Origin: a virus
Virus record (IMG/VR): IMGVR_UViG_3300022858_001224
Span: 1 to 37,158 of that record
Reading direction: 5' to 3' (one strand)
Length of the DNA: 37,158 nt
This document shows positions 3,967 to 37,158 of this stretch, in pieces. Both the position numbers and the translations under genes were made by a program. Within the stretch, counting starts at the first letter, position 1. Every line of letters starts with the position of its first letter. Under the pieces are notes generated by a model. It searched no databases. It had not been told where the DNA came from and saw only the letters and a list, made by a program, of their open reading frames with translations.

Positions 3967-3981
3967 TGGGAGGAGGTAATT

Positions 3982-5574: not shown

Positions 5575-5576
5575 AC

Positions 5577-5600
5577 AGCATAAAATGCAAGTTTTATGCT
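5577..5600 (+). repeat. CATAAAA-N6-TTTTATG palindrome, copy 1
   Basis: AGCATAAAA, loop TGCAAG, TTTTATGCT: a 9-bp perfect stem starting 2 nt after the portal stop. The same core with a 6-nt loop recurs at 10332, 33768 and 34348. It could be a weak terminator, an operator or an RNA processing site. Confidence 0.6.
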
Positions 5601-5676
5601 ACTGTGTGTGACGAATAATAAAATATTTGGCTCCTACACGCAGTATAAAAAGACTTAGTGATGGAGGAATAATATA

Positions 5677-6000
5677 ATGTCACAAATTTCAAATACTACA
5701 AAAAATAAGTTAGATAAAATGAATCGTGCTGCTCAAGATGCCGAACTTGGAACTTTACTTCAAGCTATGCCTTTAAGCGGAACGCATACAATCACTGATG
5801 CAGAAGCAAACGCAAGTTCTGTTACGATTGATACTGGTTTAACGGCTGTTAGTGCTGGTATGGCACAAATTTTCCGTTCTGGAAGTGTTGTTTCTGCTTC
5901 AGCTTCAAGTTTGAAAGTTGTTGCTTCCGCTGAAAATCTGGTTATTTCTCAAGGTTCAGCAGTTGTAAAAGATGATGTTATTAATTGGATAGCGTTCTAA
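5677..6000 (+). CDS. Small Ala/Ser/Val-rich structural protein
   Basis: A 107-residue protein preceded by GGAGG. The N-terminal third is helical and charged (KNKLDKMNRAAQDAELGTLL); the rest is Ser/Ala/Val/Thr-rich and probably beta-structured. The composition fits a small virion protein, such as a head fibre or decoration protein, and its place between portal and protease supports a head role. I do not recognise the family. The 102 nt upstream contain the palindrome at 5577-5600 and no other gene. Confidence 0.6.
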   Translation: MSQISNTTKNKLDKMNRAAQDAELGTLLQAMPLSGTHTITDAEANASSVTIDTGLTAVSAGMAQIFRSGSVVSASASSLKVVASAENLVISQGSAVVKDDVINWIAF

Positions 6001-6027
6001 ATATTTTAGATAATAGAGGTGGACACA

Positions 6028-6219
6028 ATGATTATAAATCACGAAATGATTGAAAAGAAGTTTAAATGCAAAAAGATTCTTGCCGATTATCTGATGTATG
6101 AACGTAATCTACCTCTATTATCTCTAGATGGAAAAGATTACTATTTTACAGATAATGATTTATTGAGAGAAATTTTACAATCACTACCTTTTTGGTTGAA
6201 GTTTATAAAATTCTTTTAA
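6028..6219 (+). CDS. Small hypothetical protein
   Basis: A 63-residue charged protein (MIINHEMIEKKF...) with a hydrophobic end (LPFWLKFIKFF). The ATG at 6028 follows AGAGGTGG with good spacing. No family is recognised. It lies between two head genes in the same direction, so it may be a head-assembly accessory, but nothing in the sequence shows this. Confidence 0.6.
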   Translation: MIINHEMIEKKFKCKKILADYLMYERNLPLLSLDGKDYYFTDNDLLREILQSLPFWLKFIKFF

Positions 6220-6249
6220 TAAAAGGATACTTTTTGAAAGGAGGTATAC

Positions 6250-7839
6250 TTGAAAAAAAACGATAAAATAAAATTTGCGGTTGACAATGTTGAAATGATT
6301 GACAGCGATCCGGATTCAAGATTTGCTTTAATGTCTATGGATTTCTTTGCTTCAGGAAAAAATTTAAATGATTCGTTTGTCTCAACGGAAGTATTGAATC
6401 GTACAGCCTCTTCAATTAAGAAGTGTCCTGTTATTTGGGAATATGATATTTATCGAGATGATATTGGCACGCACTCAAAAAACACAGTTGCTTGTGGTTT
6501 CGTTTCGGAATTATCCGAAATAAAAAGTCGTGTTCTTGATGATGGTCGAACAATGTTGAATGTAATTGTTTATATCTGGAAAAATTACTCCGGTCAAATA
6601 GTTGATTTATTTAAAAGAGATGAGAATAAAAAACCAGTTTCTGTTGAAATGAGTGTTTTTGATGTAAAAAAAACAAGCAAAGGCGATGAACTTTTAGATT
6701 ATCAATTTGAAGCAATAACTATTTTAGGATCGGACGTTACTCCAGCTATTCCATTAGCTCAATCTGAAATTGTAAGATTTTCAAAAGAATATGACGAAGA
6801 TTTTGAACGAGAATTTTCTAGTAAAGAAGACGACGTTCAGAAGGAGAATAATATGACAGACAAGATTAAAGAAGAAGAAAAGGATAATCTTGAGGATTTG
6901 GCTTTTGAACAGGAAAAAGTTTTGCCTGAAGGTTCTTCAGAAAAAGTAGAAGAAGTTGAAAAAGATGAATTCCAAGAAGAAGTCGTTGATGAAGAAATTG
7001 TTGACGAAGAAGTTGACGAAGAAGTTGATGAAGAAGAATCTATGGTTGAAGATGAACCTGTGATTGAGGAAGAAACTCCTGAAATTGAAGATGTTTCTGA
7101 AAAAGAGTTTTCGTTGAATTCAGCTCAAACTCTCAATGTGCTTAGAGAATCTGTTTCAACTTATAAATATACAGATGAATATGGAAGTTGGGATAGATAT
7201 TGGGTTACTGCTTATGATGAAACGTATACTTATTTCTATGATTGTGAAGATGGAAAAATGTATCGTGCGAGTTATAACATTAGTGGAAATGATGTTAGCG
7301 TAGATGTTGAAAATAAAGAATACGTTATTTCAGGCGGATACAAAACCGTTGCTGAATATGATGCATCTAGATTTTCTAAAGAAATGACTGATTCAATTTT
7401 GACTATTTTCAAAGATTATGAAAAATATTCTTTGATAGAAGAAGAATTAGCTAAAGAAGAAAAAGACTATAACAAGATTTTCTCAATATATAATGAGAGA
7501 ATTGTCAGAATGTCTGAAGATAGAAATGCTTATCTTGCAAAGAATGAAGAACTTGAAAAATTCAAATCAGATATTGATCAAAAGAATTTTTCTTCAGAGG
7601 TAAAACTTGTTTTAAAGAAAATTGAAGAGAAAGTTGTAATTTCTCCTGAACAACTTGGAGAAATGGAAAAGAAATCTCTTGAGTTTACTTTGGACAATAT
7701 CAATGAGTGGGAGACAATGTGCAAGGCGGAAACTTTTAGTTTTGATAAAAAAGGTGAAGGAAATAAAAAAGTTTATGCAACACATTGGCAAAAAAGAAGC
7801 CCTGAAAAAGAAGCAAAACCTCTTTGGGTTCACAAATAA
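6250..7839 (+). CDS. Prohead protease-scaffold fusion protein
   Basis: A 529-residue protein just upstream of the capsid genes. Residues 1-180 resemble prohead maturation proteases (FFASGKNLNDSFVSTEVLN..., GFVSELSEIKSRVLDDGRTMLNV, PVSVEMSVFDV, ITILGSDVTPAIPLA). Residues about 190-290 are extremely acidic (DEE/VDEE repeats), and the C-terminal part (about 375-500) is a charged coiled coil, typical of scaffolding. The role would be to template capsid assembly and then cleave scaffold and capsid delta-domain. Exact catalytic residues are not assigned. It starts at TTG (6250) after AAAGGAGG. An in-frame internal start at 6853 probably gives a separate scaffold. Confidence 0.75.
   Translation: MKKNDKIKFAVDNVEMIDSDPDSRFALMSMDFFASGKNLNDSFVSTEVLNRTASSIKKCPVIWEYDIYRDDIGTHSKNTVACGFVSELSEIKSRVLDDGRTMLNVIVYIWKNYSGQIVDLFKRDENKKPVSVEMSVFDVKKTSKGDELLDYQFEAITILGSDVTPAIPLAQSEIVRFSKEYDEDFEREFSSKEDDVQKENNMTDKIKEEEKDNLEDLAFEQEKVLPEGSSEKVEEVEKDEFQEEVVDEEIVDEEVDEEVDEEESMVEDEPVIEEETPEIEDVSEKEFSLNSAQTLNVLRESVSTYKYTDEYGSWDRYWVTAYDETYTYFYDCEDGKMYRASYNISGNDVSVDVENKEYVISGGYKTVAEYDASRFSKEMTDSILTIFKDYEKYSLIEEELAKEEKDYNKIFSIYNERIVRMSEDRNAYLAKNEELEKFKSDIDQKNFSSEVKLVLKKIEEKVVISPEQLGEMEKKSLEFTLDNINEWETMCKAETFSFDKKGEGNKKVYATHWQKRSPEKEAKPLWVHK
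6853..7839 (+). CDS. Nested scaffolding protein (in-frame internal start)
   Basis: AAGGAG (6841-6846) lies 6 nt before ATG at 6853, which is exactly in frame with the protease gene (codon 202). It would give a 328-residue acidic, coiled-coil protein (MTDKIKEEEKDN...) lacking the protease domain. This parallels the lambda C/Nu3 arrangement, where the scaffold is made from an internal start in the protease gene. That the site is used is inference from the ribosome binding site and domain boundary. Confidence 0.65.
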   Translation: MTDKIKEEEKDNLEDLAFEQEKVLPEGSSEKVEEVEKDEFQEEVVDEEIVDEEVDEEVDEEESMVEDEPVIEEETPEIEDVSEKEFSLNSAQTLNVLRESVSTYKYTDEYGSWDRYWVTAYDETYTYFYDCEDGKMYRASYNISGNDVSVDVENKEYVISGGYKTVAEYDASRFSKEMTDSILTIFKDYEKYSLIEEELAKEEKDYNKIFSIYNERIVRMSEDRNAYLAKNEELEKFKSDIDQKNFSSEVKLVLKKIEEKVVISPEQLGEMEKKSLEFTLDNINEWETMCKAETFSFDKKGEGNKKVYATHWQKRSPEKEAKPLWVHK

Positions 7840-7844
7840 TTTAG

Positions 7845-7868
7845 GAATAGTCTAGCGAATAGTCTAGT
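7845..7868 (+). repeat. 12-nt tandem repeat
   Basis: GAATAGTCTAG appears twice in tandem (7845-7855 and 7857-7867), each followed by one spacer base, in the short gap between the protease/scaffold gene and the next gene. It looks like a simple duplication. Confidence 0.7.
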
Positions 7869-7889
7869 AAAATAAAGGAGAAAATAAAT

Positions 7890-8420
7890 ATGTCACATAA
7901 CATTTTAATCAAAAATGCCGTTGATGAAAAAAACAACGCTTTGAATCGCTCTGCATGGAGTGCTTCGGCTTTGGACAACGGATGGGTTTTTAGCCTTAAT
8001 TCACAGAGTGCAATTACCGGATACAGTGAAGTTTGGCTTGCAACTCAGCCTTCAACCGGTTCATTGAGCGGTCTTTGGATGGCTTCGGATTCAGAAGTTG
8101 TATTGACTGATAGCAAATATAAAGGTATCAACCCCGATCCTCGTGATTTTAACATTGGTGCATCCACTGTTTTCACAGCTTTTAAACCGATGCCTGGAGA
8201 TATTATCACTATTACCAAAGATGCCATGAATGATACTACAACTCAAGCTTTTGCTATTGCTTCCACCGCAGATTATGAATTTACATGGTCAGACAATCCC
8301 GTTGGAACAGACACAATGTGCCTGCGCTATCTGGATACAACCTATATTCCCGTTGGTAGTGGTTCCGCCATGGGCGATAGTCGTGTTGTTGCTTACCAAT
8401 TTGAAGTATTGTACAACTAA
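7890..8420 (+). CDS. Capsid decoration-like structural protein
   Basis: A 176-residue protein rich in Ser, Thr, Gly and aromatic residues (DNGWVFSLNSQSAITGYSEVWLATQPSTGSL...), ending FEVLYN, with few charged stretches. It sits between the scaffold and the major capsid gene and ends 18 nt before it, the usual place of a head decoration or stabilisation protein. Its bases are less AT-skewed than nearby non-structural genes, as in highly expressed virion genes. I recognise no family motif; the role is inferred from position. AAAGGAG precedes the ATG. Confidence 0.65.
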   Translation: MSHNILIKNAVDEKNNALNRSAWSASALDNGWVFSLNSQSAITGYSEVWLATQPSTGSLSGLWMASDSEVVLTDSKYKGINPDPRDFNIGASTVFTAFKPMPGDIITITKDAMNDTTTQAFAIASTADYEFTWSDNPVGTDTMCLRYLDTTYIPVGSGSAMGDSRVVAYQFEVLYN

Positions 8421-8438
8421 GGAAGGAGGAAAAAAGAT

Positions 8439-9536
8439 ATGAAAATGACATCACAAGCAATGAATTTTGCTAAAAGTAATGAAGATTTATTCAAGAAATA
8501 TCAGGATACGATGAATCATTGGCTTCATAAAAATGAAGGACTTGATACTGATTATAATGCTGAATTTTCTCTTGACGAAAAAGAATCCCAACTTAGTGAC
8601 GCTTTAATTGAAGCAACTCTTAAACGAGCTGGTGCAGACTATGCTGTTGGTCAGAAAGTGGACGTTTGGTTTAATGATCGCCACATTCAAGAACATCTGT
8701 TTGCCATCGTTGGTGAAATGGTTGATGCGAATATTCCTGATACAATTAATCGTTCTATTGGTGCTTATACTGACATCCGCGTAGGTGGGTTTGGTGATAG
8801 CTTTAATTTCGATGTAAAATCTAACGATCTTTTCTTGGTTTCAAGAGCAGGTCGAGGCAAACGAAACTCTGAAATTCATCGCGAATTTAAGGGTCAGACA
8901 TCGATCATCCCAGAAGCTCGTCAATTGAGTGCTGGTGTTAATATGTATCGTGTTCTTTCTGGACATGCCTCATTGGCAGAACTTACCATGAAGATTATTA
9001 AATCTATTGAAACAGAAATTACTAAAGACACATATGATGTTTTTGCTGCCGCAATGGATGCTGTTGATTCAACTGCTACAACTGGACTGTTAGTTTCTGG
9101 TTACACTCAGGAAACACTGGTTCGTATTTGTGGTCAGGTTGGTGCATGGAATAATGGTGCAAAGCCTATCGTTATGGGAACTCAGTTAGCCATGGTTAAC
9201 GTACTTCCTGACGATGCTAACTATCGTTATGATTTAGAAAGTGATTATGCAAAACTTGGTTATGTTAAAACCGCTTTTGGTTATGACACTATGGTGATCC
9301 CTCAGATCGCTAATCGTGCAACCCAATTTGGTGCAAATGTAATCTCTGATGATCGTCTGTGGATTCTTTCACCTGGCGCTCCCAAACTCTTGAAACTTTG
9401 TTTAGAGGGTAAAACTCTGTCCTTCTTGGATGGTGCTATGGATAATGCAAATCTTTCACAGAATGTTTCATTTATGAAAATGTGGAAATCTGCTTTCTGT
9501 TCAAACTCGGTTGCTGGCGTTATTCAGTTAACTTAA
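8439..9536 (+). CDS. Major capsid protein
   Basis: A 365-residue protein following protease/scaffold and decoration genes. The charged helical N-terminus (about residues 1-60) could be the delta-domain removed during maturation. The rest fits an HK97-fold capsid protein: long E-loop-like section (FNFDVKSNDLFLVSRAGRGKRNSEIHREFKG), spine-helix-like region (LAELTMKIIKSIETEITKDTYDVF), and a C-terminal A-domain with KPIVMGTQLAMVNVLP and DDRLWILSPGAPKLLKLCLEG. The strong site AAGGAGGAAAAAAGAT precedes the ATG. Call from length, order and overall pattern. Confidence 0.85.
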   Translation: MKMTSQAMNFAKSNEDLFKKYQDTMNHWLHKNEGLDTDYNAEFSLDEKESQLSDALIEATLKRAGADYAVGQKVDVWFNDRHIQEHLFAIVGEMVDANIPDTINRSIGAYTDIRVGGFGDSFNFDVKSNDLFLVSRAGRGKRNSEIHREFKGQTSIIPEARQLSAGVNMYRVLSGHASLAELTMKIIKSIETEITKDTYDVFAAAMDAVDSTATTGLLVSGYTQETLVRICGQVGAWNNGAKPIVMGTQLAMVNVLPDDANYRYDLESDYAKLGYVKTAFGYDTMVIPQIANRATQFGANVISDDRLWILSPGAPKLLKLCLEGKTLSFLDGAMDNANLSQNVSFMKMWKSAFCSNSVAGVIQLT

Positions 9537-9549
9537 GTTGAAAATTTAA

Positions 9550-9575
9550 TGGAGGGGTTGAAATATATCCCTCCA
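9550..9575 (+). other. Intergenic hairpin after capsid gene
   Basis: TGGAGGG and CCCTCCA form a 7-bp stem around a 12-nt loop, 13 nt after the capsid stop. No T run follows, so it is more likely a transcript-stability or processing hairpin than a full terminator. Confidence 0.5.
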
Positions 9576-9610
9576 GTAGTTTAGAGGAAAAATAGAAGAG
9601 GAAAAATAAA

Positions 9611-10336
9611 ATGACTAGAAAAGTAACATCAAAAAGATTGCCTGGTGAATATAATAAAGTCGAAGTTGAAAAAGTTTTAGACATTAAAGAACCAGAGGTA
9701 AAACCTGAAGTTGATACTATTGAATTAATGAAAATGATTAATGAATTAAAAGAAAAAATAAATTCTATGGAAGCTGAAAAACCAAAAGATAAAAATATTC
9801 CAGTTTCTAATGAAGAAAAAATTAATTCAGATGATTATATTAAAGTGATGAGCTTGAATCCTTATGAATTAAACTTGACAACCGAGAGAAATGGAAGAGG
9901 AAAGATATTTTCTTTTAAAACTTTTGGCGAAGTGAAGAATATTTTATACGGTGATTTAGTTCTTATTGTCGAAACTCATGGGTCATTTTTGAATCAAGGT
10001 AGATTTGTTATTTTAGATCGAAGGGTTATTCGACGACACGGATTAGATGAATCTTACGGAAAACTGCTTACAAAAGAAAATTTTGAAGCAATTTTAGACG
10101 GAAGATTATCTAATAATAGTAGCGGTAATCAATCTGATGCTGTGAAATTATTTGAAGGTGCAAATGATGTTCAAAGGGAAGCCGTGTCACGGATTTTTGT
10201 TGACAAGATTCTTGCAGGAGAAGATGTTGACTTAAATTTTCTTTATAGGTTGAAAAGAATTATTGGTTATAGTATTGTTGAAAAGGCTGAAGGAATCCGT
10301 AAGACAATCGAGGATTCTAAAGAAGAAAACGCATAA
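9611..10336 (+). CDS. Hypothetical head-region protein with N-terminal coiled coil
   Basis: A 241-residue protein. Residues about 1-75 are charged and Pro/Lys/Glu-rich with a predicted coiled coil (IELMKMINELKEKINSMEAEKPKDK). The remainder is compact (DYIKVMSLNPYELNLTTERNGRGKIFSFKTFGEVKNILYGDLVLIVE). It lies between the capsid gene and the tRNA cluster. No family is recognised; position fits a head-completion protein or internal scaffold-like factor. The stop codon overlaps a palindrome at 10332-10351. Confidence 0.6.
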   Translation: MTRKVTSKRLPGEYNKVEVEKVLDIKEPEVKPEVDTIELMKMINELKEKINSMEAEKPKDKNIPVSNEEKINSDDYIKVMSLNPYELNLTTERNGRGKIFSFKTFGEVKNILYGDLVLIVETHGSFLNQGRFVILDRRVIRRHGLDESYGKLLTKENFEAILDGRLSNNSSGNQSDAVKLFEGANDVQREAVSRIFVDKILAGEDVDLNFLYRLKRIIGYSIVEKAEGIRKTIEDSKEENA

Positions 10337-10449: not shown

Positions 10450-10540
10450 GGAGAAATGACAGAAATGGCAATTGTGTCCGTCTTGAAAATGGTAGCCACG
10501 GTAGATATTCCGTGTGAGGGTTCGAGTCCTTCTTTCTCCG
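10450..10540 (+). tRNA. tRNA-Ser (UGA)
   Basis: The acceptor stem GGAGAAA/TTTCTCC pairs perfectly with discriminator G at 10540. The anticodon loop CTTGAAA has anticodon TGA at 10484-10486. A long variable arm (CACGG...CCGTG) marks a type II tRNA, and the T arm is GAGGG-TTCGAGT-CCTTC. One end pair of the anticodon stem is a T-T mismatch. CCA is not encoded. It would read UCA and related serine codons. Confidence 0.9.
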
Positions 10541-10551
10541 TTTAGTTTATT

Positions 10552-10624
10552 GGGTTTCTAGCCCATTTGGGAGAGCGCCTGTTCTGCAAGCAGGAGGTAA
10601 AGAGTTCGATCCTCTTGAAATCCA
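10552..10624 (+). tRNA. tRNA-Ala (UGC), unusual C33
   Basis: The acceptor stem GGGTTTC/GAAATCC contains the G3-U70 wobble pair that is the alanine identity element, with discriminator A73. The block GGGAGAGCGCCTG...GCAGGAGGT matches typical bacterial tRNA-Ala. The anticodon loop reads TCTGCAA, anticodon TGC at 10585-10587. Position 33, almost always U, is C (10584). One D-stem pair is a C-A mismatch. CCA is not encoded. The anticodon rests on a 7-nt loop closed by CCTGT/GCAGG. Confidence 0.8.
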
Positions 10625-10628
10625 CTCT

Positions 10629-10702
10629 GCTCTTGTAGCATAGTCAGGCAATGCGCTATCCTTGTAAGGTAGAAACCGTGAGTTCAAATCTCACCGAGAG
10701 CT
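10629..10702 (+). tRNA. tRNA-Thr (UGU)
   Basis: Acceptor stem GCTCTTG/CGAGAGC (one G-U pair), D stem GCAT/ATGC, anticodon stem CTATC/GGTAG with loop CTTGTAA and anticodon TGT at 10663-10665, and T arm GTGAG-TTCAAAT-CTCAC. The discriminator is T and CCA is not encoded. It starts 5 nt after tRNA-Ala. Confidence 0.92.
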
Positions 10703-17411: not shown

Positions 17412-18425
17412 ATGGGCAGAAAAACATACAAGAAAGTAATTACATCGCCGGAACTATCAAAGAAAATCAATCCTGCTAGTTTGAAACTTGTTGAAAGATT
17501 TCTAAAAACAAAAAAAGCAAGATGTAGCGATTTGACAGTTAAAGGATATGCAAGTGATTTGAATATTTTTTTGACTTGGAATTTGTTGTATAATGACAAT
17601 ATTCCTTTTACGGATATTCGGAAAATTCAATTTGCGGAATTTTTTAACTTTACGCTTACCGATCTCCGCTGGAGTTCTTCAAGATTCAGTAGAGTAAAAT
17701 CTGCGTTATCTTCATTTTCTGATTTCATAGAAAAATATTTCGATACAGATTTTCCGTCATTTCGCAACGTCATTCTTCGAGCTGTAGATTCAGTTCCAAA
17801 ACAAGCAGTCAGAGAGAAGACTATTTTGTCAGATGAACAAGTTGAGTCTGTATTCAATTATATCGAAAATGAACTTGAAGATTTTCAAATGGCCTGCTGG
17901 TTTGCTTTAGCAATTGCAAGTGGTTCGAGATTCTCAGAACTGCTCAGATTTACTACAGAAAATATTGACCCTACGGTTTTGGCTTTTGAAGATATATTTA
18001 TAGAGAGTCTTCCGATTCAAACAAAAGGAAGGGGAAAAAATGGAAAGATGATAAGTAAGTATATCATCAAAGATATATTTTTGCCAAGATATGAAAAGTG
18101 GCTTCCAATTAGAAAAGAAATTCTAAATAAGAATGGCAAAGATCATGATTTTTTATTTATAAAACATAATGGCAATATTGCTCTGGCTTCTACGGCAAGA
18201 ACTTGGGTTCAAAAAATAGAAGATTTCTTGGAAGTTGATGTATATTCTCACTGCCTTCGCCACTTTTTTACTACTTATTTGGCAAAGGCTGGATTACCTG
18301 TTGATTTGATTCAAGAAATCGGAGGGTGGAAAAATACTGAAATGGTAATCCTGTATTCTGATGTTTCAGCTAAAGATAGGAAGTGGAAAGAACTTGAAAA
18401 TTTGAAAAATATTACTAAAAAATAA
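17412..18425 (+). CDS. Tyrosine recombinase (integrase/Xer family)
   Basis: A 337-residue recombinase. Residues about 20-110 form a core-binding domain (LKLVERFLKTKKARCSDLTVKGYASDLNIFLTW). The catalytic domain shows SGSRFSELLRF (R173), K205 in QTKGRGK, SHCLRHFF (H280, R283), GGWKN (W306 in the H/W position) and the nucleophile ILYSD (Y315). All catalytic positions are present. It would cut and join DNA at a specific site, for integration, excision or dimer resolution. Unusually for an integrase it lies between tail genes rather than at a lysogeny module; a lox-like inverted repeat lies at 33825-33862. Confidence 0.9.
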   Translation: MGRKTYKKVITSPELSKKINPASLKLVERFLKTKKARCSDLTVKGYASDLNIFLTWNLLYNDNIPFTDIRKIQFAEFFNFTLTDLRWSSSRFSRVKSALSSFSDFIEKYFDTDFPSFRNVILRAVDSVPKQAVREKTILSDEQVESVFNYIENELEDFQMACWFALAIASGSRFSELLRFTTENIDPTVLAFEDIFIESLPIQTKGRGKNGKMISKYIIKDIFLPRYEKWLPIRKEILNKNGKDHDFLFIKHNGNIALASTARTWVQKIEDFLEVDVYSHCLRHFFTTYLAKAGLPVDLIQEIGGWKNTEMVILYSDVSAKDRKWKELENLKNITKK

Positions 18426-18452
18426 GTTGTAGGCTATTTGAAAGGAGGCTAT

Positions 18453-20312
18453 ATGTCATCATTATCAAAATACACTATCAGAGTTAAAGCTGAGTTAGAT
18501 GATGTAAATCTTACGAAACAATTAAATGCTTTACAAAAAAAGATAAGTAAAGCAAAAAAAGCTGTCAGCGGTGAAAACGATCCTAAAAAATCGGCAGGAG
18601 AATTTTTAGGCATAGGTGAAAAAAGTTTTGAAGGTCTTGCAAGCAGAATAAAAGAATCGTCTGGCGAGTTAACGAAACTCAGAAAACATTTTCTTGGTCT
18701 TAGCGATACTATTCACAATGTAAAAGCAACAAAACTTATTGATGATGGAGAAATGACCTCTTATTCAGTTTCATTAGATAATATACAGGATGGCGTAAAA
18801 GAATCTCAAAAGTGGATGGTAAAACTTGGAGAAGGCGGGCAGTATTTTTTAAAAAAAATTTCTGGTACTGAACAGGAAGCCAAGAAGTTAAAAGAAACTA
18901 TAAAAAAAACTCAAGGTTTAAAAATAGTAGATGACGACAACCTTGATTCAGCAAAAATAAAAATTCAAGAATTTTCCGCAGGATTGCAAAAGGTTAGGGA
19001 AAGTTTTGAAGGTATTGGAGAAAATTTAAAGGTTTCGGGTGATTTTGATGTAAATACTGGAAAATTAAAAGGTTATCAAGTTACATTTGATAAAATAAAA
19101 GATGATGTAAAGCAAACTGAAACTTACATGGTTGGTCTTGATGGAAAAGTTGGTCAAGTTTTAAAAGGTGCAAAAACTACGGCAAAGGCTTTTAAAGAAG
19201 TAAAAAAAACTGTAAAAGACACCTCGTTATCTACGGAACAAGTAGATGCTAATCTTTTGAAATGGAATGATTCTCTTAGAGAAATGGAGAATAGAACTCC
19301 AAAAATATTTGAAAAAAAAGAGATTGTAGGAATAAGAACTGAACTTGACGGAATGATAGCTGCTTTTAATGATCCTAACGTAAAAAAGACACCAGAGATG
19401 GTTGCGGCTATCAATGCAAAAATGACGCATCTTAAATCTACTATACGTTCTACTTCTCTTGAAACTCAAAATCTAACTCACGATAGTGATGATTTTGGTA
19501 GTGTCATGGCGAAAAATATAAAAAAGGTTGTGCAGTGGGCAATTGCTACAACCGCAATTTATGGAACATTGAAGCAAATTAAAGAAGCGATTCAATTTAT
19601 TAAAGATTTAAATAAAGAAATGACAAATATCCAGGTTGTAACTGGAATGTCAAAAAATGAAATTAATGGTTTAACACAAGAATTTAATAAGTTGGCACTT
19701 GCGACAGGATCCACAACTATCGAGATCGCCGCGGGAAGTACAGAATGGTTTCGGGCTGGAAAAACAATAGCAGAAACTTCTGAATTGATGAGAGCGACTA
19801 TGATGCTTTCAAAACTTGGAAATATGGAATCTGCGGAATCAACCACTAAACTTACTGCTGCTTTAAATGGATTTCAACTTGGAGCTGAAGACGCAATTGA
19901 TGTAGTTGATGTACTAATTAATCTTGATAATCAATATTCTACAAGTGTTTCAGAATTAACAGAAGCATTGCAAATGTCTTCTAGTAGTGCTCAACAAGTA
20001 GGTGTTGATTTTAATGAATTAGCTTCTATGATTACCGTAATTTCGAGCACAACTAGACGCAGCGGATCTTCGATAGGAATGAGCATGAAAACTATGTTTG
20101 CCAGATTATCTGCAATAAAACTTGGCAAAATGTTTGAAGATGATGCCACAAATATTAATGATGTTGAAAAAGCATTAAGTTTAGTAAATATTAAATTAAG
20201 AGATAGTGAGACAAGTTTTCGCGATATGGGTAATGTGTTTGAAGATATTGCAGTAAAATGGGACACTATGAACGAATTGGAACAGTCGGCAGTGTCGACA
20301 GCGGTTGCTGGT
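18453..20312 (+). CDS. Tape measure protein, exon 1 (split by group I intron)
   Basis: The first 620 codons of a TP901-type tape measure protein, which sets tail length and forms part of the DNA channel. An N-terminal charged, helical region contains two related copies of a motif (SYSVSLDNIQDGVKESQKWMV and GYQVTFDKIKDDVKQTETYMV). The conserved core follows (NKEMTNIQVVTGMSKNEINGLTQEF..., GSTEWFRAGKTIAET..., SSTTRRSGSSIGMSMKTMFARL). The exon ends ...STAVAG. The open frame continues only to a stop at 20358-20360 inside the intron. The ATG at 18453 follows AAAGGAGG. Joined to exon 2, the protein has about 1,540 residues. Confidence 0.9.
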
Positions 20313-21647
20313 AAAATGTATGCCAGAACATGTAGTGATGCATGGGAGTTCGCTTATTAAACTCTAGAAGATGACCATATCGGAAAAACGCCTATAACAA
20401 GGTCAATTCCGAGGAAAGGCACAATAATTATAGACAAAAATATAGTGTAGATATTTTTGTATTGGAGAAACAATGAGAAAGAATAAAAGATGGACAGAGG
20501 AAAGAAAACAATTTTTAATAGATAACTATCCAAATAAACCAAAAGAATTTTTGATTGAAGAATTGGGAATTGCATGGAGTTCAATATATGCAAAGGCTAG
20601 TGAATTAAAGGTTGTTAGAAGGAATATTTTTACAAAAGAAGACATTGAATTTATTGTTGAAAATTATGAGCACATGAATTATTCTGAAATAGCAAATTTT
20701 TTAGGTAGAGACAAAAGTACTGTTGCCTGTAAAATTAATGGTGTGGGTTTGGTAAAAGTTGAAAAATGGACAAATGAAGAGGTTGATCTTTTAATAAAAA
20801 ATTATCCTAAATATACAAATAGATATTTATCAGATAAAATATTGCCAGGCAGAAAGAATTACAGCATAAGAACTATGGCTTATAAATATGGACTTCATAA
20901 ATCAGAAGAGATGGGAAAAAAAAGATATGATTCAGAAAAAATGATAGAGGACTTAATAAATCTTTCTGAAAAATTAGGAAGAACGCCATTTCTTAGCGAT
21001 TTAGTTGAAAATGGATTGGCTTCTGGAAAAACTTATCAAAGATATTTTGATGGATATCGTAATGCTTGTGAAATCGCTGGTCTAGAAATAAATTCAAATT
21101 TATGGGGAAGATCAATTTCCTGTAAGTCTATCAATGGCGATATATGTTTTTCAAAATCTGAAAAAATTATTACAGACTTTTTCATAGAGAACGACATTGG
21201 ATATAAAAAAGAAATAAAATATAGTAATTTTATAGATGAATCTATTTGCGGAAATAAAATTGTTGATTGGATTTTATCTGAAAATATTTTTGTAGAATAT
21301 TTTGGATTGCCAGAAAAAGAAAATTATAAAAAAAGAATGAATGAAAAAATTAGTATGTGTGAAAAAAATGATATTGTTTTAATAGAAGTGTATAGAAAAG
21401 ATTTGACAAAACTACACGAAGTTTTTAGTCAATTTTTATAGTTATTGTGAATCCGTAACGATCAATCGGGCTGTGTTGGTAACAACATAACCCACGTCAT
21501 CTTTCTTGTGAATAACAAGAAAAAGATATGATCTGAACTGCAACTATAATGAGAATATATGAAATTGCAGAGCATGGTAGAAATTCCATGACGCCATTCG
21601 TAAGAATGGTCAGTAACCTATTTTATGGGTGAAAGCAACAGATTTTG
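20313..21647 (+). other. Group I intron (IA-like) in tape measure gene
   Basis: Splicing joins ...GTTGCTGGT to GTACGACAA, restoring AVAG-VRQR. P1: exon CTGGT (20308-20312) pairs with GCCAG (20322-20326) with the U-G pair at the splice site; the intron ends with G (21647). P10: GTAT (20318-20321) pairs with exon GTAC (21648-21651). P3: GATGAC (20370-20375) with GTCATC (21496-21501). P7: GATCA (21460-21464) with TGATC (21529-21533), within an S-like AAGATATGATCT. P8: TTTCTTGT/ACAAGAAA. A stem CACAATAA/TTATTGTG (20420-20427, 21442-21449) has the endonuclease gene in its loop. P9-type hairpins follow, one capped by GTAA. Confidence 0.93.
20473..21441 (+). CDS. Intron-encoded homing endonuclease
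   Basis: A 322-residue protein lying in a peripheral loop of the intron, its stop directly at the start of the closing stem. Residues about 1-160 contain three similar helix-turn-helix units: WTEERKQFLIDNYP, FTKEDIEFIVENYE and WTNEEVDLLIKNYP, likely for recognising the long homing site. Next is a segment like the homing-endonuclease-associated repeat (LINLSEKLGRTPFLSDL...YRNACEIAGL). The C-terminus (SEKIITDFFIENDIGYKKE...IVDWILSENIFVEYFG) looks like a PD-(D/E)XK or Vsr-like nuclease, with D in VDW and E in VEYFG as candidate catalytic residues. It would cut intron-less tape-measure genes and spread the intron. Confidence 0.82.
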   Translation: MRKNKRWTEERKQFLIDNYPNKPKEFLIEELGIAWSSIYAKASELKVVRRNIFTKEDIEFIVENYEHMNYSEIANFLGRDKSTVACKINGVGLVKVEKWTNEEVDLLIKNYPKYTNRYLSDKILPGRKNYSIRTMAYKYGLHKSEEMGKKRYDSEKMIEDLINLSEKLGRTPFLSDLVENGLASGKTYQRYFDGYRNACEIAGLEINSNLWGRSISCKSINGDICFSKSEKIITDFFIENDIGYKKEIKYSNFIDESICGNKIVDWILSENIFVEYFGLPEKENYKKRMNEKISMCEKNDIVLIEVYRKDLTKLHEVFSQFL

Positions 21648-24410
21648 GTACGACAAAGAGAAGCATTTTTAGTATTAATGAGCAATTATAATCAAGTATT
21701 AGATGCACAGGCAATTGCAGCCGATTCTGCTGGTTTAGCAACAGAACGGTATGAAATTTATATGGAAGGTCTTGAAGCGACTGCTAATCGTTTTACTGCT
21801 ACATGGGAACAGTTATGGACAAAAACCATTAATTCAGAAGCTGTTGAAATTGTTATCAATATGGGAATTGCGATAATGCGATGGGGTATTGAGATGGGTG
21901 GATTATTGCCTATAATAAAGGTGTTGTCCGGTGTTTTAATTGCTCTCAATATTGAAAAAATTACTGGCGTTATAGTTGGTATTATAGGTTCGATTAAAAA
22001 TCTTGGTGTTGCTATAGCTAAGTTTGCAGTACTTGCCGCATCTAATATGGCTATAGCTACCGCCGGTGTTACACTTCTTATTGCTGCGATTATCGGTATT
22101 GGTTATGCTATAGATGAATCATCAAAAAAAATGAGTAGTTTGGCGGAATCTTTTGATGAAATAAATTCAGAGGCATTATCTAGACAAGATGAGTTAAAAT
22201 CTCTTGGTGAAGAATATGAGACTTTATCGGAAAAACAAAATAAAAATAAAGATGATTTAATCAGGCTGCTCGATATTCAAACAATTATGAATACAAAATA
22301 TGGCGCTGCTGCGGATGAAATAACATTATATTCTGATGCGGTAGACAATAATAGCGATGCTATTAAAGAGAATATTGAGTGGATAAAAAAACAAGCAGAA
22401 GTTGACGCTCAATCATATATTGATACGAACAGGCTGAAATATGATAAAGCAAAAGAATTTTTAGATAAAGAAGGTGTTGTTCCGAAAATGTTTTTTGAAA
22501 GTGAAGACGATGCTGGTTATAGGTTATATGAGGACATTCCAGAAAATGCAGGACAAAGAGATATTCTTGAATATTACGCCAAAGTCGCTGAAGCTGGAGA
22601 AAAAGGTTATAAAAAATATGAAAAATGGTATAATGAATTAATAAAAGAGGTTTCTACCGCCGAAGATCTTGTGATTGGATACGACCATTTTGTAAATGTT
22701 TTACAGGGCGTTAGTGATGGGGTTGAATCGGTTAGTGATTCTAGCGATGATACAATTCCTTCTATTTATGATACCGCAGAATCATTTGAAGAACTTGCAA
22801 AAGCCGCCGATGATGCTACAGATTCTATGCGTTCTGCAATGGACGTTTCGGTCTCTTTACTGAAGGCTTATAAAGAAAAAGATTCTTTGACATCTTCACA
22901 AATAGATCAATTGAAAAACGCATTTCCAGATTCTTATATGCAAGCACTTACAATAGAGGGTAATTTAATAAAATTAAATATAGAAACTCTCAAAGAGATG
23001 GTTATTGCTCGTGCTAGAGAATCTCTTGTAGCTTCAAAGACAGCATTGTCTAATATTGAAGCTAAAAGAAAAGAGGCATTATCATCTATAAGTACAGCAA
23101 GAGCCATTATTGAAAGTAATAGTGCGGTAGAAATTTCTATGTCTGGGCTAGGTTTGTTCTACAATAAAATAGCTGTTGAAGCTGTAAATAGCGCAAATAA
23201 TCAAATCGCTGCGCAACAGGCACTTCTAGAAGGTACTGAAGCTCAATATAAATCTCTTCAGGACGATATTAAGCTAAATTCTATTTATCTCAGCCAACTA
23301 GAAGACGGTAGTTATTGGACAAATGAGTTAGCCGATGCAACCAGTGGGGATTCCGATAGTTTGGCTGAATCTGAAAAAGCGTATAGCGATCTTTTAGCTT
23401 TGACAATAAAAATGTTGAAACAAAAAAAGAATGCAGAAAAAGACGCTTTGCAAGATGAATTAGCTGGTTATAAAAAAATTATTGATGCTCGTAAAAGAAT
23501 CATCGATCTTCGTGAAGAAGAACGTGATTTTCAAAACGATCTTGATGATAAAAACGAGAAACTAGCAGATATTGATGCTGAATTATTACAACTTCAGTTT
23601 GATAACAGTGAAGAAGCAGTAGCAAGACGATTGGTTCTTGAAGATGAAAAAGCCAAGCAAATTGAGGATATTGACGAATTACAGAATGATCGTAGCGTTG
23701 AAATCCAGAAAGATGCTTTGGATGAAGAATATGATGATTATGAAGAACTTATCGACAAAAAAATTGCATTAATAGATAGCTATCTTAGCCGTGAAGGTGA
23801 GATTGCTCAAGAAGCTATTGCCATGATGAAGAATAGAACCGATGGGTTCTACCAATCATTATTGAGCTGGAATAGAGCTTATGGCGATGGAATTGATAGT
23901 ACGATCTCGAAATTATGGGCACAAGTAAGTGCTGCTCATGCGGCTTCAAGTATCAGTATGAATGTTCAACAAGTTTCCACAGAACCAGAAAAGAAACCAT
24001 ATATTGCTCCTGCAAAGACGCAACAAGATTACTATCAGGACTTTCAATCTGGTGGTTTAGTATGGGTTGAAAAAGGGACTGGTTCTAGAATTGTTCAAAG
24101 TCAGTATGATATGCTCCCCCGTTATCACGAGGGTGGCGTTGTTGGTATGCGGGGTTCTAAGGTTGGCGAAGTATTTGCAAACCTAATGAAAGGCGAAGTT
24201 GTTGTCAATCAACAACAAATGTCTGACTTTTTAGGATCTACATTACCAGATATTGCGAATAGTGGAATAACTATCAGTATGCCGATTACAGTTCAAGGAA
24301 ATCTTGATAAATCAGTTCTTCCAGAATTGAAATCTATGATTTTTGACACTATAAAGAAAGCAACTGATAATCGTGGAATAAGGAGAGGTGTAAAAAGCTT
24401 CTCAGTTTAA
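21648..24410 (+). CDS. Tape measure protein, exon 2
   Basis: The remaining 920 codons of the tape measure gene, beginning VRQREAFLVLMSNYNQVLDAQ, the sequence expected right after the core motif in exon 1. Membrane-like segments lie early (GLLPIIKVLSGVLIALN; AAIIGIGYAID), followed by long charged coiled coils (KQKKNAEKDALQDELAGYKKIIDARKRIIDLREEERDFQNDLDDKNEKL). The C-terminus is typical of tape measures (GGLVWVEKGTGSRIV...YHEGGVVGMRG...NLMKGEVVVNQQQM). An upstream TTG in frame is the last intron codon and is not used. A terminator follows. Confidence 0.9.
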   Translation, partial: VRQREAFLVLMSNYNQVLDAQAIAADSAGLATERYEIYMEGLEATANRFTATWEQLWTKTINSEAVEIVINMGIAIMRWGIEMGGLLPIIKVLSGVLIALNIEKITGVIVGIIGSIKNLGVAIAKFAVLAASNMAIATAGVTLLIAAIIGIGYAIDESSKKMSSLAESFDEINSEALSRQDELKSLGEEYETLSEKQNKNKDDLIRLLDIQTIMNTKYGAAADEITLYSDAVDNNSDAIKENIEWIKKQAEVDAQSYIDTNRLKYDKAKEFLDKEGVVPKMFFESEDDAGYRLYEDIPENAGQRDILEYYAKVAEAGEKGYKKYEKWYNELIKEVSTAEDLVIGYDHFVNVLQGVSDGVESVSDSSDDTIPSIYDTAESFEELAKAADDATDSMRSAMDVSVSLLKAYKEKDSLTSSQIDQLKNAFPDSYMQALTIEGNLIKLNIETLKEMVIARARESLVASKTALSNIEAKRKEALSSISTARAIIESNSAVEISMSGLGLFYNKIAVEAVNSANNQIAAQQALLEGTEAQYKSLQDDIKLNSIYLSQLEDGSYWTNELADATSGDSDSLAESEKAYSDLLALTIKMLKQKKNAEKDALQDELAGYKKIIDARKRIIDLREEERDFQNDLDDKNEKLADIDAELLQLQFDNSEEAVARRLVLEDEKAKQIEDIDELQNDRSVEIQKDALDEEYDDYEELIDKKIALIDSYLSREGEIAQEAIAMMKNRTDGFYQSLLSWNRAYGDGIDSTISKLWAQVSAAHAASSISMNVQQVSTEPEKKPYIAPAKTQQDYYQDFQSGGLVWVEKGTGSRIVQSQYDMLPRYHEGGVVGMRGSKVGEVFANLMKGEVVVNQQQMSDFLGSTLPDIANSGITISMPITVQGNLDKSVLPELKSMIFDTIKKATDNRGIRRGVKSFSV

Positions 24411-32188: not shown

Positions 32189-32210
32189 GGGTTGTGTTTT
32201 GGGAGGCGGA

Positions 32211-33143
32211 ATGACTATTTTTAGTAAATTAAGAAAAAGTGATGAATCAATCCGTAATTATTTTGTGGATGTTTCACATTGGCAGAATATTATTGATTGG
32301 GAAAAATTGAAAAATTTTGATAATGGTTCTATCCAAATGGTTATGATCAAAGCTACTGATAGCAACGGATTAGGACGAATGTTCTTAGATAGTAAAGCTA
32401 TTGCTAACATTCAGGGTGCAATAAGTGTTGGATTACCATTTGGAGTTTATCATTGGTTGAAAGACGATGTGGCTCCAAAAACAGCAGTAGAATTTTTGAT
32501 GGATAACATTGGACAATACGATCCATCTATATATAATCTAGATGTTGAAGATACTAATTTTACACACGGTGCAAGCGATTATGTTTGGCGAGCACAAGAA
32601 TATCTTAAACTCATCGAAGAATCTTCAGGTAAAAAACCCAAGATTTATACCGCGGAATGGTTTATGAGTCAATACCTAAGAGCGCCATTAAAAAATGAAG
32701 GAAAAGACCCTTCAAAATATTTGGGTTGGATGGGGTTATACGATTTATGGGTGGCACAATATCCGAATTCAAAATATGATTATTTAGGGAATTTGACCAC
32801 ACCCAAAATTCCAGAAGAATGGGACGAATATAAAATGTGGCAATTTGCTTCAAATGTATATTATCCTTATCCTGGAGTTAGCGAGTGGGCAAATAAATGG
32901 TATGCAAATGGATGGGATTTATGGGGTGCTAATGCATCTAAATCGTTTGATATGAATGTATTTCATTGCTCATTAGAAGAATTGATTGGCGATGAAGTAA
33001 TTGTTGAGCCAGAAATTCCTGAAATTCCAGATGAATGTGAAGCAGCAAGAAAAATCTTAGAAATAAAAATTGCAGAAAAATCTGCGAAATTAAATGTTTT
33101 AGAAAATAAAATTGATGAAATTAATCAGATAGTTGTAAGATAA
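32211..33143 (+). CDS. GH25 family endolysin (muramidase)
   Basis: A 310-residue lysozyme-type hydrolase that would cut the MurNAc-GlcNAc bond of host peptidoglycan. Visible GH25 features: FVDVSHWQNIIDWEKL (D20), QMVMIKATDSNG, PFGVYHWLKDD, YNLDVEDTNF (D111, E113 as catalytic acidic pair), PKIYTAEWFM, and YKMWQFAS. After residue 255 a Pro-rich linker leads to a C-terminal coiled coil (AARKILEIKIAEKSAKLNVLENKIDEINQI) instead of a known wall-binding repeat. No signal peptide is seen, so release depends on a holin. ATG at 32211 follows GGGAGG. Confidence 0.9.
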   Translation: MTIFSKLRKSDESIRNYFVDVSHWQNIIDWEKLKNFDNGSIQMVMIKATDSNGLGRMFLDSKAIANIQGAISVGLPFGVYHWLKDDVAPKTAVEFLMDNIGQYDPSIYNLDVEDTNFTHGASDYVWRAQEYLKLIEESSGKKPKIYTAEWFMSQYLRAPLKNEGKDPSKYLGWMGLYDLWVAQYPNSKYDYLGNLTTPKIPEEWDEYKMWQFASNVYYPYPGVSEWANKWYANGWDLWGANASKSFDMNVFHCSLEELIGDEVIVEPEIPEIPDECEAARKILEIKIAEKSAKLNVLENKIDEINQIVVR

Positions 33144-33156
33144 GAGAACATAATCT

Positions 33157-33438
33157 ATGAATACATCACAAATAATATCTCTTATACTAGCTTGTATTGT
33201 AGTTATTTTTGAAATAAGATGGATGTTTAAAAATAAAGAAGTATGGATTGTGGCTATTCCTGAATTATCTTGGCTAATTCATGTTGTTATTTTTTACCTG
33301 TCTCTTATGTTTGGGTGGTGGCCTCATGGAGAATATTCTTGGTGGTCTAGTGGATTAAGATTCCATGCAGTTATAACCATCTTTTTATTGGTATTATATC
33401 GTAATGTCGGGAAAGGATGGCGAAGCAATGGAAAATAA
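33157..33438 (+). CDS. Three-helix membrane protein, holin candidate
   Basis: A 93-residue protein with hydrophobic segments at about residues 4-20, 30-52 and 68-84 and a basic end (RNVGKGWRSNGK). It sits 13 nt after the endolysin gene, where holins are common; holins form the membrane hole that lets endolysin reach the wall. The ribosome binding site is weak (AGAGA). It overlaps the next gene by 11 nt. Confidence 0.65.
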   Translation: MNTSQIISLILACIVVIFEIRWMFKNKEVWIVAIPELSWLIHVVIFYLSLMFGWWPHGEYSWWSSGLRFHAVITIFLLVLYRNVGKGWRSNGK

Positions 33439-33787: not shown

Positions 33788-33811
33788 TGGTTTTGAATTT
33801 TTGATGTTAAA

Positions 33812-33875
33812 ATGGTGTTTTTTGTATAGATAGATTAACTTACGTAGGTTAATCTATCTATATAGAATACACCAT
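33812..33875 (+). repeat. Long inverted repeat with lox-like 15-8-15 core
   Basis: TATAGATAGATTAAC (33825-33839) and GTTAATCTATCTATA (33848-33862) are perfect inverted arms around the 8-nt spacer TTACGTAG. The pairing continues outward with five further pairs (two G-U), one mismatch and then ATGGTGT/ACACCAT, about 27 pairs in all. It lies between the lysis genes and the next structural gene. It may be a recombination site, an RNase III site or a transcript-stability hairpin. Confidence 0.9.
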
Positions 33876-33896
33876 AATAAAGTAAAGGAGGTTTTT

Positions 33897-34795: not shown

Positions 34796-36157
34796 ATGCG
34801 TAGAACAAAAAGAATGACGCTAATTTTTAGAAATAAATCTAAAGGTACACCTACACCTATCGGAGAGAATTCAATCTATGGAGTGAGCTGGGACAAGTCC
34901 AGTTCTCCAACATTGACACGAACCGACGATTCTGTCGGATTTACAGCGGAAGCAGGAGTTGGAGCCGGAACAGTTGTGAATGATTTTGACACGGCTGAAA
35001 TTTATAAAGACATTACAACCTCAGTGGATGCACTCGGAAACACATTCGTAAAGATTCCAAAATTTTACATCAAGAAAACAAATGGAGTTGGAAGCTACAC
35101 TATTCAAATCAGCCGGTATCAACACAGTGGCTATTATCTTCCCTATTGTTTCTGGGACTTTGATAATAGTGTTGAGCTTGATTATTTTTATGTCGGAGCA
35201 TATACGACCAGCCTTGACGGATCGAGTCGGTTAGAAAGTAAGAGTGGAAACTATCCGCTTGTCAATACAAATATTGTAAACATGCGAACATATGCTGAGA
35301 ACAATGGCGCAGGTTATCATCAATTTGATATACATGCTCATGATCTATTGTCCTGTTTATTCATGGTAGAATTTGCGACTCTGAATAGCCAGTCCATTAT
35401 GTTTGGATTTGCTAATGGAAGATATTCAGCCAGCGATTTAGCGACAGCTACTGAAAATGGTGTCAATAGAATTATTGTAGCTAACGCAATAGCGGATTAT
35501 TATAGAGTTGGACAACCGATAGGAATTGGAACATCGCGGGGAGGCAATCAAATATTTTATGGCCGAGATATTACTGTGATAGACGTTTATGATGCCAGTA
35601 ATAAAGCAATCTCATTTGATGGGGCTGCTGTTAATATAGCAACTGGGAACTATTTATATAATGTTGGTTGGAAATCAGGGTTTAGTTCTGGGATTTCAGC
35701 TACGTCAGGCAGTTTAGTAAGTAATTCTGATGGTAAGTATCCTTTTGTTTATCGAGGAGTTGAAAATTTATGGGGAAATGTCTGGCAGTTTATAGATGGT
35801 ATTAACATCAATGATCACCAATCATGGGTGGCACTTAACCATGTCGATTATGCCAGCAATGTTTTTGCATCACCGTACCTACAGTTAGATTATGCTAACC
35901 ATAACGCGAGTGGATATATAACTGAAATGGGGTTTGACAGCAATTATCCATTTGCACAGTATCCAATTAGTGTTGGTGGAGGAGCAGCAACTTATTATAG
36001 CGATTATTATTATCAAGCCACTGGACAAAGAATTGCGTTTGCTGGTGGTAATTGGTATTTCGGTGCGATTGCTGGGTTGTCGTATTGGGTTTTGAGCAGC
36101 TCTTCTTCTAGCGCGTACGTCAGTCTTGGCGGGCGGCTTCTTAAATCCTCTCTTTAG
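34796..36157 (+). CDS. DGR variable protein, C-type-lectin/FGE-like
   Basis: A 453-residue protein, the target of the retroelement. The first 110 residues differ from the rest and may attach it to the virion (GENSIYGVSWDKSSSPTLTRTDDSVGF). The central and C-terminal part has the features of formylglycine-generating-enzyme-like C-type lectin folds, including KIPKFYIKK, FDIHAHDLLSCLFMVEFAT, YRGVENLWGNVWQFIDGI and GGNW. The variable residues (about 413-448) are at the very C-terminus, as in other DGR targets, where they form the ligand-binding face. AGGTG precedes the ATG at 34796. Likely a receptor-binding protein. Confidence 0.92.
   Translation: MRRTKRMTLIFRNKSKGTPTPIGENSIYGVSWDKSSSPTLTRTDDSVGFTAEAGVGAGTVVNDFDTAEIYKDITTSVDALGNTFVKIPKFYIKKTNGVGSYTIQISRYQHSGYYLPYCFWDFDNSVELDYFYVGAYTTSLDGSSRLESKSGNYPLVNTNIVNMRTYAENNGAGYHQFDIHAHDLLSCLFMVEFATLNSQSIMFGFANGRYSASDLATATENGVNRIIVANAIADYYRVGQPIGIGTSRGGNQIFYGRDITVIDVYDASNKAISFDGAAVNIATGNYLYNVGWKSGFSSGISATSGSLVSNSDGKYPFVYRGVENLWGNVWQFIDGININDHQSWVALNHVDYASNVFASPYLQLDYANHNASGYITEMGFDSNYPFAQYPISVGGGAATYYSDYYYQATGQRIAFAGGNWYFGAIAGLSYWVLSSSSSSAYVSLGGRLLKSSL
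36033..36137 (+). repeat. DGR variable repeat (VR)
   Basis: A 105-nt block at the 3' end of the target gene aligns without gaps with TR at 36216-36320. By hand count 23 positions differ, and each is A in TR. Upstream of 36033 and shortly downstream of 36137 similarity stops (a few further bases, CTCTT/TTCTT, match with one T/C mismatch). Confidence 0.95.
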
Positions 36158-36163
36158 GGGGTT

Positions 36164-36177
36164 TGGGGGTCTCCCCA
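36164..36177 (+). other. GC hairpin downstream of VR
   Basis: TGGGG, loop GTCT, CCCCA: a 5-bp stem with a 4-nt loop, 7 nt after the target gene stop. GC-rich hairpins just after VR assist retrohoming in the Bordetella phage DGR, so this is a candidate equivalent; the neighbouring GGGGGG run allows alternative pairing. Confidence 0.5.
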
Positions 36178-36215
36178 CAAGGTTTTGAATAAAATACGGG
36201 GTACAAGATGTGCTC

Positions 36216-36320
36216 TTGCGATTGCTGGTGGTAATTGGAATAACAGTGCGAATGATGGGTTGTCAAATTGGAATTTGAACAACACTTCTTCAAACGCGAA
36301 CATCAATATTGGCAGGCAGA
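36216..36320 (+). repeat. DGR template repeat (TR)
   Basis: A non-coding copy of VR located between the target gene and the reverse transcriptase. It contains 33 adenines, mostly in AAT/AAC codons in the VR frame (NWNNSANDGLSNWNLNN), which allow the widest amino-acid range when adenines are mutated. It has its own open frame, but that is a by-product of the copied coding sequence. Confidence 0.95.
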
Positions 36321-36330
36321 CTCTTATTAG

Positions 36331-36352
36331 AAAATGTAAAAAAATACATTTT
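36331..36352 (+). other. Hairpin in TR-RT spacer
   Basis: AAAATGTA, loop of six A, TACATTTT: a perfect 8-bp AT stem 10 nt after TR. The spacer RNA between TR and RT is needed for cDNA priming in the Bordetella system, so this may be part of that RNA structure. Confidence 0.5.
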
Positions 36353-36445
36353 GTATTCCACACCTCTTGGTGAAAATTAAGCCGTAAAGAGCATAGTTTA
36401 GTAGGTTTATTCTCGAAATACTATGAGGCTAATAAGAAGGAAATT

Positions 36446-37158
36446 ATGAAAAGAATTGGATATATCTATGAAAAAATATATTCTTACGAGAATATACAAA
36501 ACGCAATATTAAAGGCTTCACTAGGAAAAAGAAATAGGAAGTATGTAAAAAACAAAATAGACAATATGGATAATACAATCCTTGAAATTCAACATATGTT
36601 AAAAAATAAACTTTACAAGCCATCGCCTTATAACATAAAAATAATTCTTGATGGTGCAAACAAAAAGAAAAGAATGATTTATAAACCAAAATTTTATCCC
36701 GACCAAATTATACACTGGGCATTGATATTGCAAATTCAAGATATACTTTTAAAAGGAATGTACAAATATACTTGCGGAAGTGTTCCGGGAAGAGGAACAA
36801 GCTATGGTCAAAAAATTGTTCGCAAATGGCTTGATAAAGATTATAAAAATACAAAATATTGTTTCAAGGCAGATATTACCAAGTTTTATCCATCCATAAA
36901 TATCAACATATTAAAAAATATGTTTTATAAAAAAATTAAAGATAAAAATTGTATATGGCTAATAAACAAAATATTAGATAGTGCCGATGATGGTTTACCG
37001 ATTGGCAATTATACAAGCCAATGGTTTTCTAATTTCTTTTTGCAAGATTTAGATCATTATATAAAGGAAAAACTTGATGTAAAATATTATATTAGGTATG
37101 TAGATGATATTGTTTTATTAGGTAGCAATAAGAAGAAATTACATTTAGCAAAAATAAA
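36446..37158 (+). CDS. DGR reverse transcriptase (3' end missing)
   Basis: The first 237 residues are in the window. Visible reverse transcriptase motifs are CGSVPGRGT (about 110-117), FKADITKFYPSIN (catalytic D143), GLPIGNYTSQWFSNFFLQDLD with the DGR-type IGNxxSQ (186-192) and YYIRYVDDIVLL (catalytic YVDD, 218-221). The enzyme would copy TR RNA and misincorporate opposite adenines. ATG at 36446 follows AGAAGG. The gene continues past the window edge, so an avd or other accessory gene could lie beyond. Confidence 0.95.
   Translation, partial: MKRIGYIYEKIYSYENIQNAILKASLGKRNRKYVKNKIDNMDNTILEIQHMLKNKLYKPSPYNIKIILDGANKKKRMIYKPKFYPDQIIHWALILQIQDILLKGMYKYTCGSVPGRGTSYGQKIVRKWLDKDYKNTKYCFKADITKFYPSININILKNMFYKKIKDKNCIWLINKILDSADDGLPIGNYTSQWFSNFFLQDLDHYIKEKLDVKYYIRYVDDIVLLGSNKKKLHLAKI

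Follow-up and report, generated by a model that had tools for sequence, protein, structure and literature searches.

The window analyzed here comprises one entire linear virus record (37,158 bases). Its 3′ end carries the parts of a diversity-generating retroelement (DGR) in the order target gene, template copy (TR), and reverse transcriptase (RT) gene, all on the plus strand. The target gene (34796–36157, 453 amino acids) is of the tail-collar-fiber type (PHROG tail family, 1.3e-56), and its 3′ end contains the variable copy (VR; 36033–36143). The intergenic TR (36216–36326), identical in the related contig L002, lies 183 nt downstream of the VR. The spacer between the TR and the RT gene is occupied by an RT-18 RNA (Rfam RF03021; 36361–36439, plus strand; 74.4 bits with a gathering score of 41.3, E = 1.1e-11), which begins 34 nt past the TR and ends 6 nt ahead of the RT start. 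The RT open reading frame (36446–37158; RVT_1, 1.6e-9; phrog_1423, 1.9e-78) contains the motifs IGNYTSQ and YVDD and is incomplete at the record end (237 codons). The first-pass annotation had listed a target with a C-terminal VR, a TR 183 nt downstream, and an RT with its motifs, in this order and on a single strand, and all of these are present. Its phrase “complete core” is too strong, since the RT runs off the record after 237 of about 355 amino acids; the full-length RT of the sister contig L003 has 355 amino acids, and the window RT is 84% identical to the RTs of L003 and of a second sister contig, L044.

The VR differs from the TR at 24 of 111 positions. Twenty-three of these mismatches are at TR adenines, of which there are 34, and one is at a C; relative to random placement, the adenine bias has a hypergeometric p of 1.6e-14. 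The non-adenine positions of the TR are matched in the VR at 76 of 77 sites, and elsewhere in the window no site matches them above 52%. The VR is located inside the coding end of the target open reading frame, with the TR outside it and before the RT. Twenty codons of the VR, read in frame, are open to change via TR adenines; 11 of them are AAY, a codon type that adenine mutation can turn into codons for many amino acids without ever creating a stop. An IMH-like stretch (36128–36143) forms the 3′ end of the VR homology and includes the sole non-adenine mismatch (36138). Directly past the target stop codon, a hairpin, TGGGG-GTCT-CCCCA (36164–36177), folds with five pairs in the window; its sequence recurs in L003, and the counterpart in a sister phage, L005, has a 7-bp stem. 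By analogy with the Bordetella phage BPP-1, the 36128–36143 stretch would serve as the IMH, and the hairpin is a candidate target-recognition stem-loop. L005 also has two homologous target genes (1–1329 and 3355–4707), each with its own VR, and a single TR.

A model of the target protein built from a 42-sequence alignment reached a pLDDT of 90.4; an earlier model from 14 sequences (pLDDT 50) was dropped. At E ≤ 0.001, the only PDB chains matched by the model were those of 5vf4 (best, 1.5e-10), the Thermus aquaticus protein TaqVP, while the best matches among viral structures were tail collar fiber proteins (2e-39). TaqVP is a DGR variable protein with a C-type lectin fold and the VR at its C terminus (PMC6328139), and the same fold is predicted for the C terminus of the target. 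However, the two proteins have 12% identity and a TM-score of 0.42–0.50, and the TaqVP system has avd. A DGR with a C-terminal VR, as originally proposed, in a target of the tail-fiber type is thus borne out by the adenine bias, the tail-family match, and the fold match. A profile comparison of the target with Mtd of BPP-1 was not significant (probability 3.5%), and therefore we do not claim sequence likeness to Mtd.

The first-pass annotation suggested asking whether the VR varies among relatives while the TR stays constant. This pattern was seen in five near-identical pairs of relatives. L003 and L044, aligned over 3626 bases, are distinguished by 22 columns: 19 substitutions plus a 3-nt gap. 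Every one of these lies within the VR, and the TRs are identical. In the L046/L049 pair, 20 of 20 changes across 11.3 kb are in the VR, and the corresponding values are 19 of 20 for L041/L039, 19 of 26 for L121/L096, and 18 of 25 for L113/L115, with the TR unchanged in every case. Three looser pairs (L124/L114, L104/L124, and L114/L127) have a constant TR and VR changes nearly all at TR adenines, together with many further changes outside the VR. The L050/L056, L052/L054, and L011/L012 pairs were outside the comparison because the script detected no TR/VR pair there. When 25 loci were pooled, 395 of 415 mismatches were at TR adenines. The sister contigs show that this DGR lineage is changing its VR in nature. 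Since the sole close match to the window cassette, L002, has the same VR, activity in the window phage itself is inferred from its kin.

The other proposed check, a comparison of the RT with DGR families, was made by phylogeny and by structure search, and both place the RT where the annotation expected it. A tree of 51 RTs set the group II RTs apart at 100/100 and placed the window RT with known DGR RTs, inside a 42-row clade (99/100) that leaves out all four RTs from bAvd-bearing records. Because several deep branches of the tree are long, we make no claim about finer placement. A single-sequence structure search with the L003 RT returned PDB entry 8ub7 on top (8.6e-31; runner-up, 6.7e-9). 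This entry is titled merely “Reverse transcriptase”; we take it to be the BPP-1 RT, with whose row in our RT alignment its printed sequence agrees. A match of the RT alignment A3 to 8ub7 was discarded as circular, since A3 contains the BPP-1 RT.

The annotation had likened the cassette to that of BPP-1. The likeness holds for adenine mutagenesis of the TR/VR type, for the target-TR-RT order on one strand, and for a structured RNA between TR and RT. It does not extend to the accessory gene or to the identity of the spacer: BPP-1 has avd between VR and TR, its spacer is RF03022 (Phage_DGR, 133 nt) rather than the 79-nt RT-18, and the RTs are 29% identical. A bAvd model that recovered the positive controls BPP-1 (2.2e-37), BalMu-1, Haboob, and an Acaryochloris plasmid gave no match either in the window or among 40-odd relatives, one of them Lactobacillus phage LBR48 with its complete genome; many of these relatives are fragments, so that single absences are weak. 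The window itself has no room for avd in the gaps that separate target, TR, and RT. PF05635 was uninformative as an Avd probe, having missed BPP-1’s own Avd. While the window ends inside the RT, in L003 the RT is followed by genes for a CBM protein and then a NAGPA protein. Genes downstream of the RT were examined as replacement accessories, and none matched Avd. For the commonest downstream family (14 loci), the three members that were scanned are tail-fiber assembly chaperones; in L003 the neighbor is a carbohydrate-binding protein, and a few other neighbors had no assignment.

Since avd is essential in BPP-1 (PMC12875486), its absence here counts against the explanation that we favor. The crAssphage LMMB and other “lineage 3” DGRs (a name taken from PMC7290462 and not from Wu 2018’s own tree) share the order TG-VR-TR-RT, targets of the C-type lectin kind, and the lack of avd, and an accessory homolog is lacking in about a quarter of DGRs (PMC7290462). 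The window cassette has the same order, no bAvd match, a C-type lectin–type target by prediction, and an RT in the 99/100 clade that includes LMMB. It is an avd-less target-TR-RT DGR, an architecture already published. LMMB differs in belonging to another phage group and in having no RT-18 above the gathering score at its locus. LBR48 (GU967410) resembles the window lineage in its RT (51.6% identical, 97% covered, compared with the full-length L003 RT), in a homologous target end, in RT-18 placed before the RT, and in the lack of bAvd from a complete genome. It differs in the next gene and in the target, of which the linear LBR48 record opens with no more than the 3′ part, 46% similar to the target of the window lineage over a third of it.

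RT-18 was found at the same place in dozens of relatives, most of those examined; among them are LBR48, a plasmid record from Apilactobacillus, and three MAG contigs. The equivalent place is taken in BPP-1 by the match to RF03022 and in other DGR-type RT loci by RT-3, RT-4, RT-14, RT-15, or RT-17 directly before the RT; group II control loci have group II intron RNAs instead. Across 29 RT-18 sequences, 91% of pairs are kept, double-change cells number 123 compared to 38 in shuffles, and the covariation score is 0.75, compared to 0.25 in shuffles and ≤0.14 when slid. To avoid sampling by RT, viral contigs were also scanned RNA-first with an RT-18 sequence pattern. This yielded 44 newly fetched stretches, a few from contigs fetched earlier under other locus identifiers. 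A complete first hairpin was present in 31 of the 44, and a DGR-type RT followed in 30 of 30 with enough downstream sequence; 26 of the stretches with a complete first hairpin had a strict A-biased repeat pair upstream. Twelve of the 13 stretches lacking a complete first hairpin had no RT, and one, cut by a contig edge, had one. At two further loci, RT-18 overlaps another family before a DGR-type RT, both matches being below their cut-offs: RT-4 in L070 (2870–2979) and RT-17 in L028 (4895–4996). The RT-18, RT-4, and RT-17 families may, judging by these overlaps, be kin.

The title of RF03021 states no function, and neither RF03021 nor RF03022 was named in any paper found by a search that did not cover Weinberg 2017, reportedly the source of the RT-n families. 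The BPP-1 spacer recruits bRT-Avd and primes complementary DNA (cDNA) synthesis (PMC12875486). Judged by its position and by analogy with BPP-1, RT-18 most likely does likewise with the RT alone, recruiting it and priming cDNA synthesis. This link is the most interesting part of the finding. We lean, by a small measure, toward a broader proposal: that RT-18 is a DGR spacer RNA, as are RT-3, RT-4, RT-14, RT-15, and RT-17, judging from where they sit, and that in the RT-18 lineage a compact spacer of ~80 nt and an Avd-less RT are enough for adenine-specific mutagenesis, making this lineage a naturally active, Avd-independent, minimal DGR.

Taken together, we are highly confident that the cassette is a genuine DGR of the avd-less target-TR-RT kind in a tailed phage akin to phages of Gram-positive hosts, and we propose that it would work as follows. 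The TR transcript, together with the adjoining RT-18 spacer RNA, would be bound by the RT, which would copy the TR to cDNA, pairing template adenines with random bases. This cDNA would then take the place of the VR in the tail-fiber gene upstream, at its 3′ end. Up to about 20 residues at the C-type lectin–like tip could vary in this way, so that the phage could change its binding; that VR variation would alter host binding is suggested by BPP-1. As a DGR, the locus is one more among thousands, of a kind already known. What is useful is the combination of a VR that changes in nature without the helper protein that BPP-1 needs and a conserved RNA at the place of the spacer. It offers a likely function for RF03021, a database family named by number only, and a simple marker, RT-18, for finding such DGRs. 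The lineage is also a candidate smaller hypermutation system, in which DGR function without Avd becomes directly testable.

Two other readings of the cassette were weighed. It could be a DGR by descent that has decayed or become inactive in this phage, its VR-TR differences dating from old activity. The end of the RT lies beyond the record, and L002 and the window share a VR even though this is the fastest-changing stretch among the sister contigs. Yet neither the target frame nor the RT frame, as far as it is visible, is interrupted, the motifs and the TR are intact, and change is under way in sister contigs whose RTs are 84% identical. A very recent shared ancestor would explain the common VR equally well, since the remainder of the block is also identical. 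We therefore regard decay as improbable. A far smaller chance, close to negligible, is left for a group II intron, retron, or abortive-infection RT beside an incidental repeat. The RT does match group II, retron, and Drt3a models under the curated cut-off, as expected of related RTs. Against this reading stand the 100/100 separation from group II RTs and the grouping with known DGR RTs, the lead of 8ub7 over all other PDB chains by 22 orders of magnitude, the adenine bias, and the VR-only change among near-identical relatives. The window also contains no group II RNA, whereas the group II control loci have such RNA.

Inside the target gene, the contig changes from one mosaic block to another. 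The block at 33767–35206 matches L003/L044 exactly, on a background of about 80–85%, and the block at 35180–37158 matches L002 exactly as far as L002 reaches. Outside these blocks, L002 and L003/L044 are about 80–85% identical to the window. The average identity of 95% to L002 masks two blocks, an observation that led to the mosaic. The switch occurs inside the target gene, within 27 shared bases (35180–35206), and the junction is either a recent recombination or an assembly chimera. In the latter case, sequence from an L003-like phage and sequence from an L002-like phage would have been joined inside the target gene, so that the DGR and the 5′ part of its target would derive from two phages. 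The exact identity to different contigs on either side of the 27 bases, and the absence of the junction from every other fetched contig, agree with a chimera. However, 27 shared bases are short for an assembler to join on, and the window is mosaic elsewhere as well (97.9% identity to L130 at 1–1813, but 87% at 2668–9948). Recombination within DGR target open reading frames has also been described (PMC3521204), and VR, TR, RT-18, and RT are all on one side of the junction and together again in L002. A chimera is thus a possibility that we take seriously but doubt. In either case, the DGR itself is beyond doubt, since all four of its elements fall past the switch point and are found together in L002. 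Near the left edge of the L003/L044 block (33767), there is a 37-nt inverted repeat (33807–33880) that is 84% complementary and has no loop.

The remainder of the record agrees with the phage context first assigned to it, a siphovirus akin to phages of Gram-positive hosts with the cassette placed after the lysis genes. Upstream of the cassette are a GH25 endolysin gene (32199–33143, plus strand; PF01183, 5.9e-25) and a small membrane-protein–like open reading frame (33157–33438, plus strand), a possible holin by its sequence, which had no match above cut-off among protein-family and PHROG profiles. An SPP1-type Dit points to a siphovirus-like context, and the terminase and capsid have relatives in phages of Bacillota. 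Since the best of these relatives belong to phages of about 90–130 kb, the record is probably a fragment of a larger phage genome. A scan of genomes for kin of the RT found distant relatives only, and hence no host is named. Three consecutive tRNA genes (Ser-TGA, Ala-TGC, and Thr-TGT; 10450–10702) stand amid structural genes. A tyrosine recombinase gene (17412–18425; PF00589, 2.6e-20) lies within the tail module, directly before the tape-measure gene, which is an odd site for a phage integrase. The tape-measure gene itself (18438–24410) is in two open reading frames, 18438–20360 and 21645–24410. The interruption had no Rfam family match at E ≤ 5; it looks like an intron and contains, between the two halves, a 322–amino acid homing-endonuclease–like open reading frame (20473–21441; HNH_repeat, 3.1e-13).
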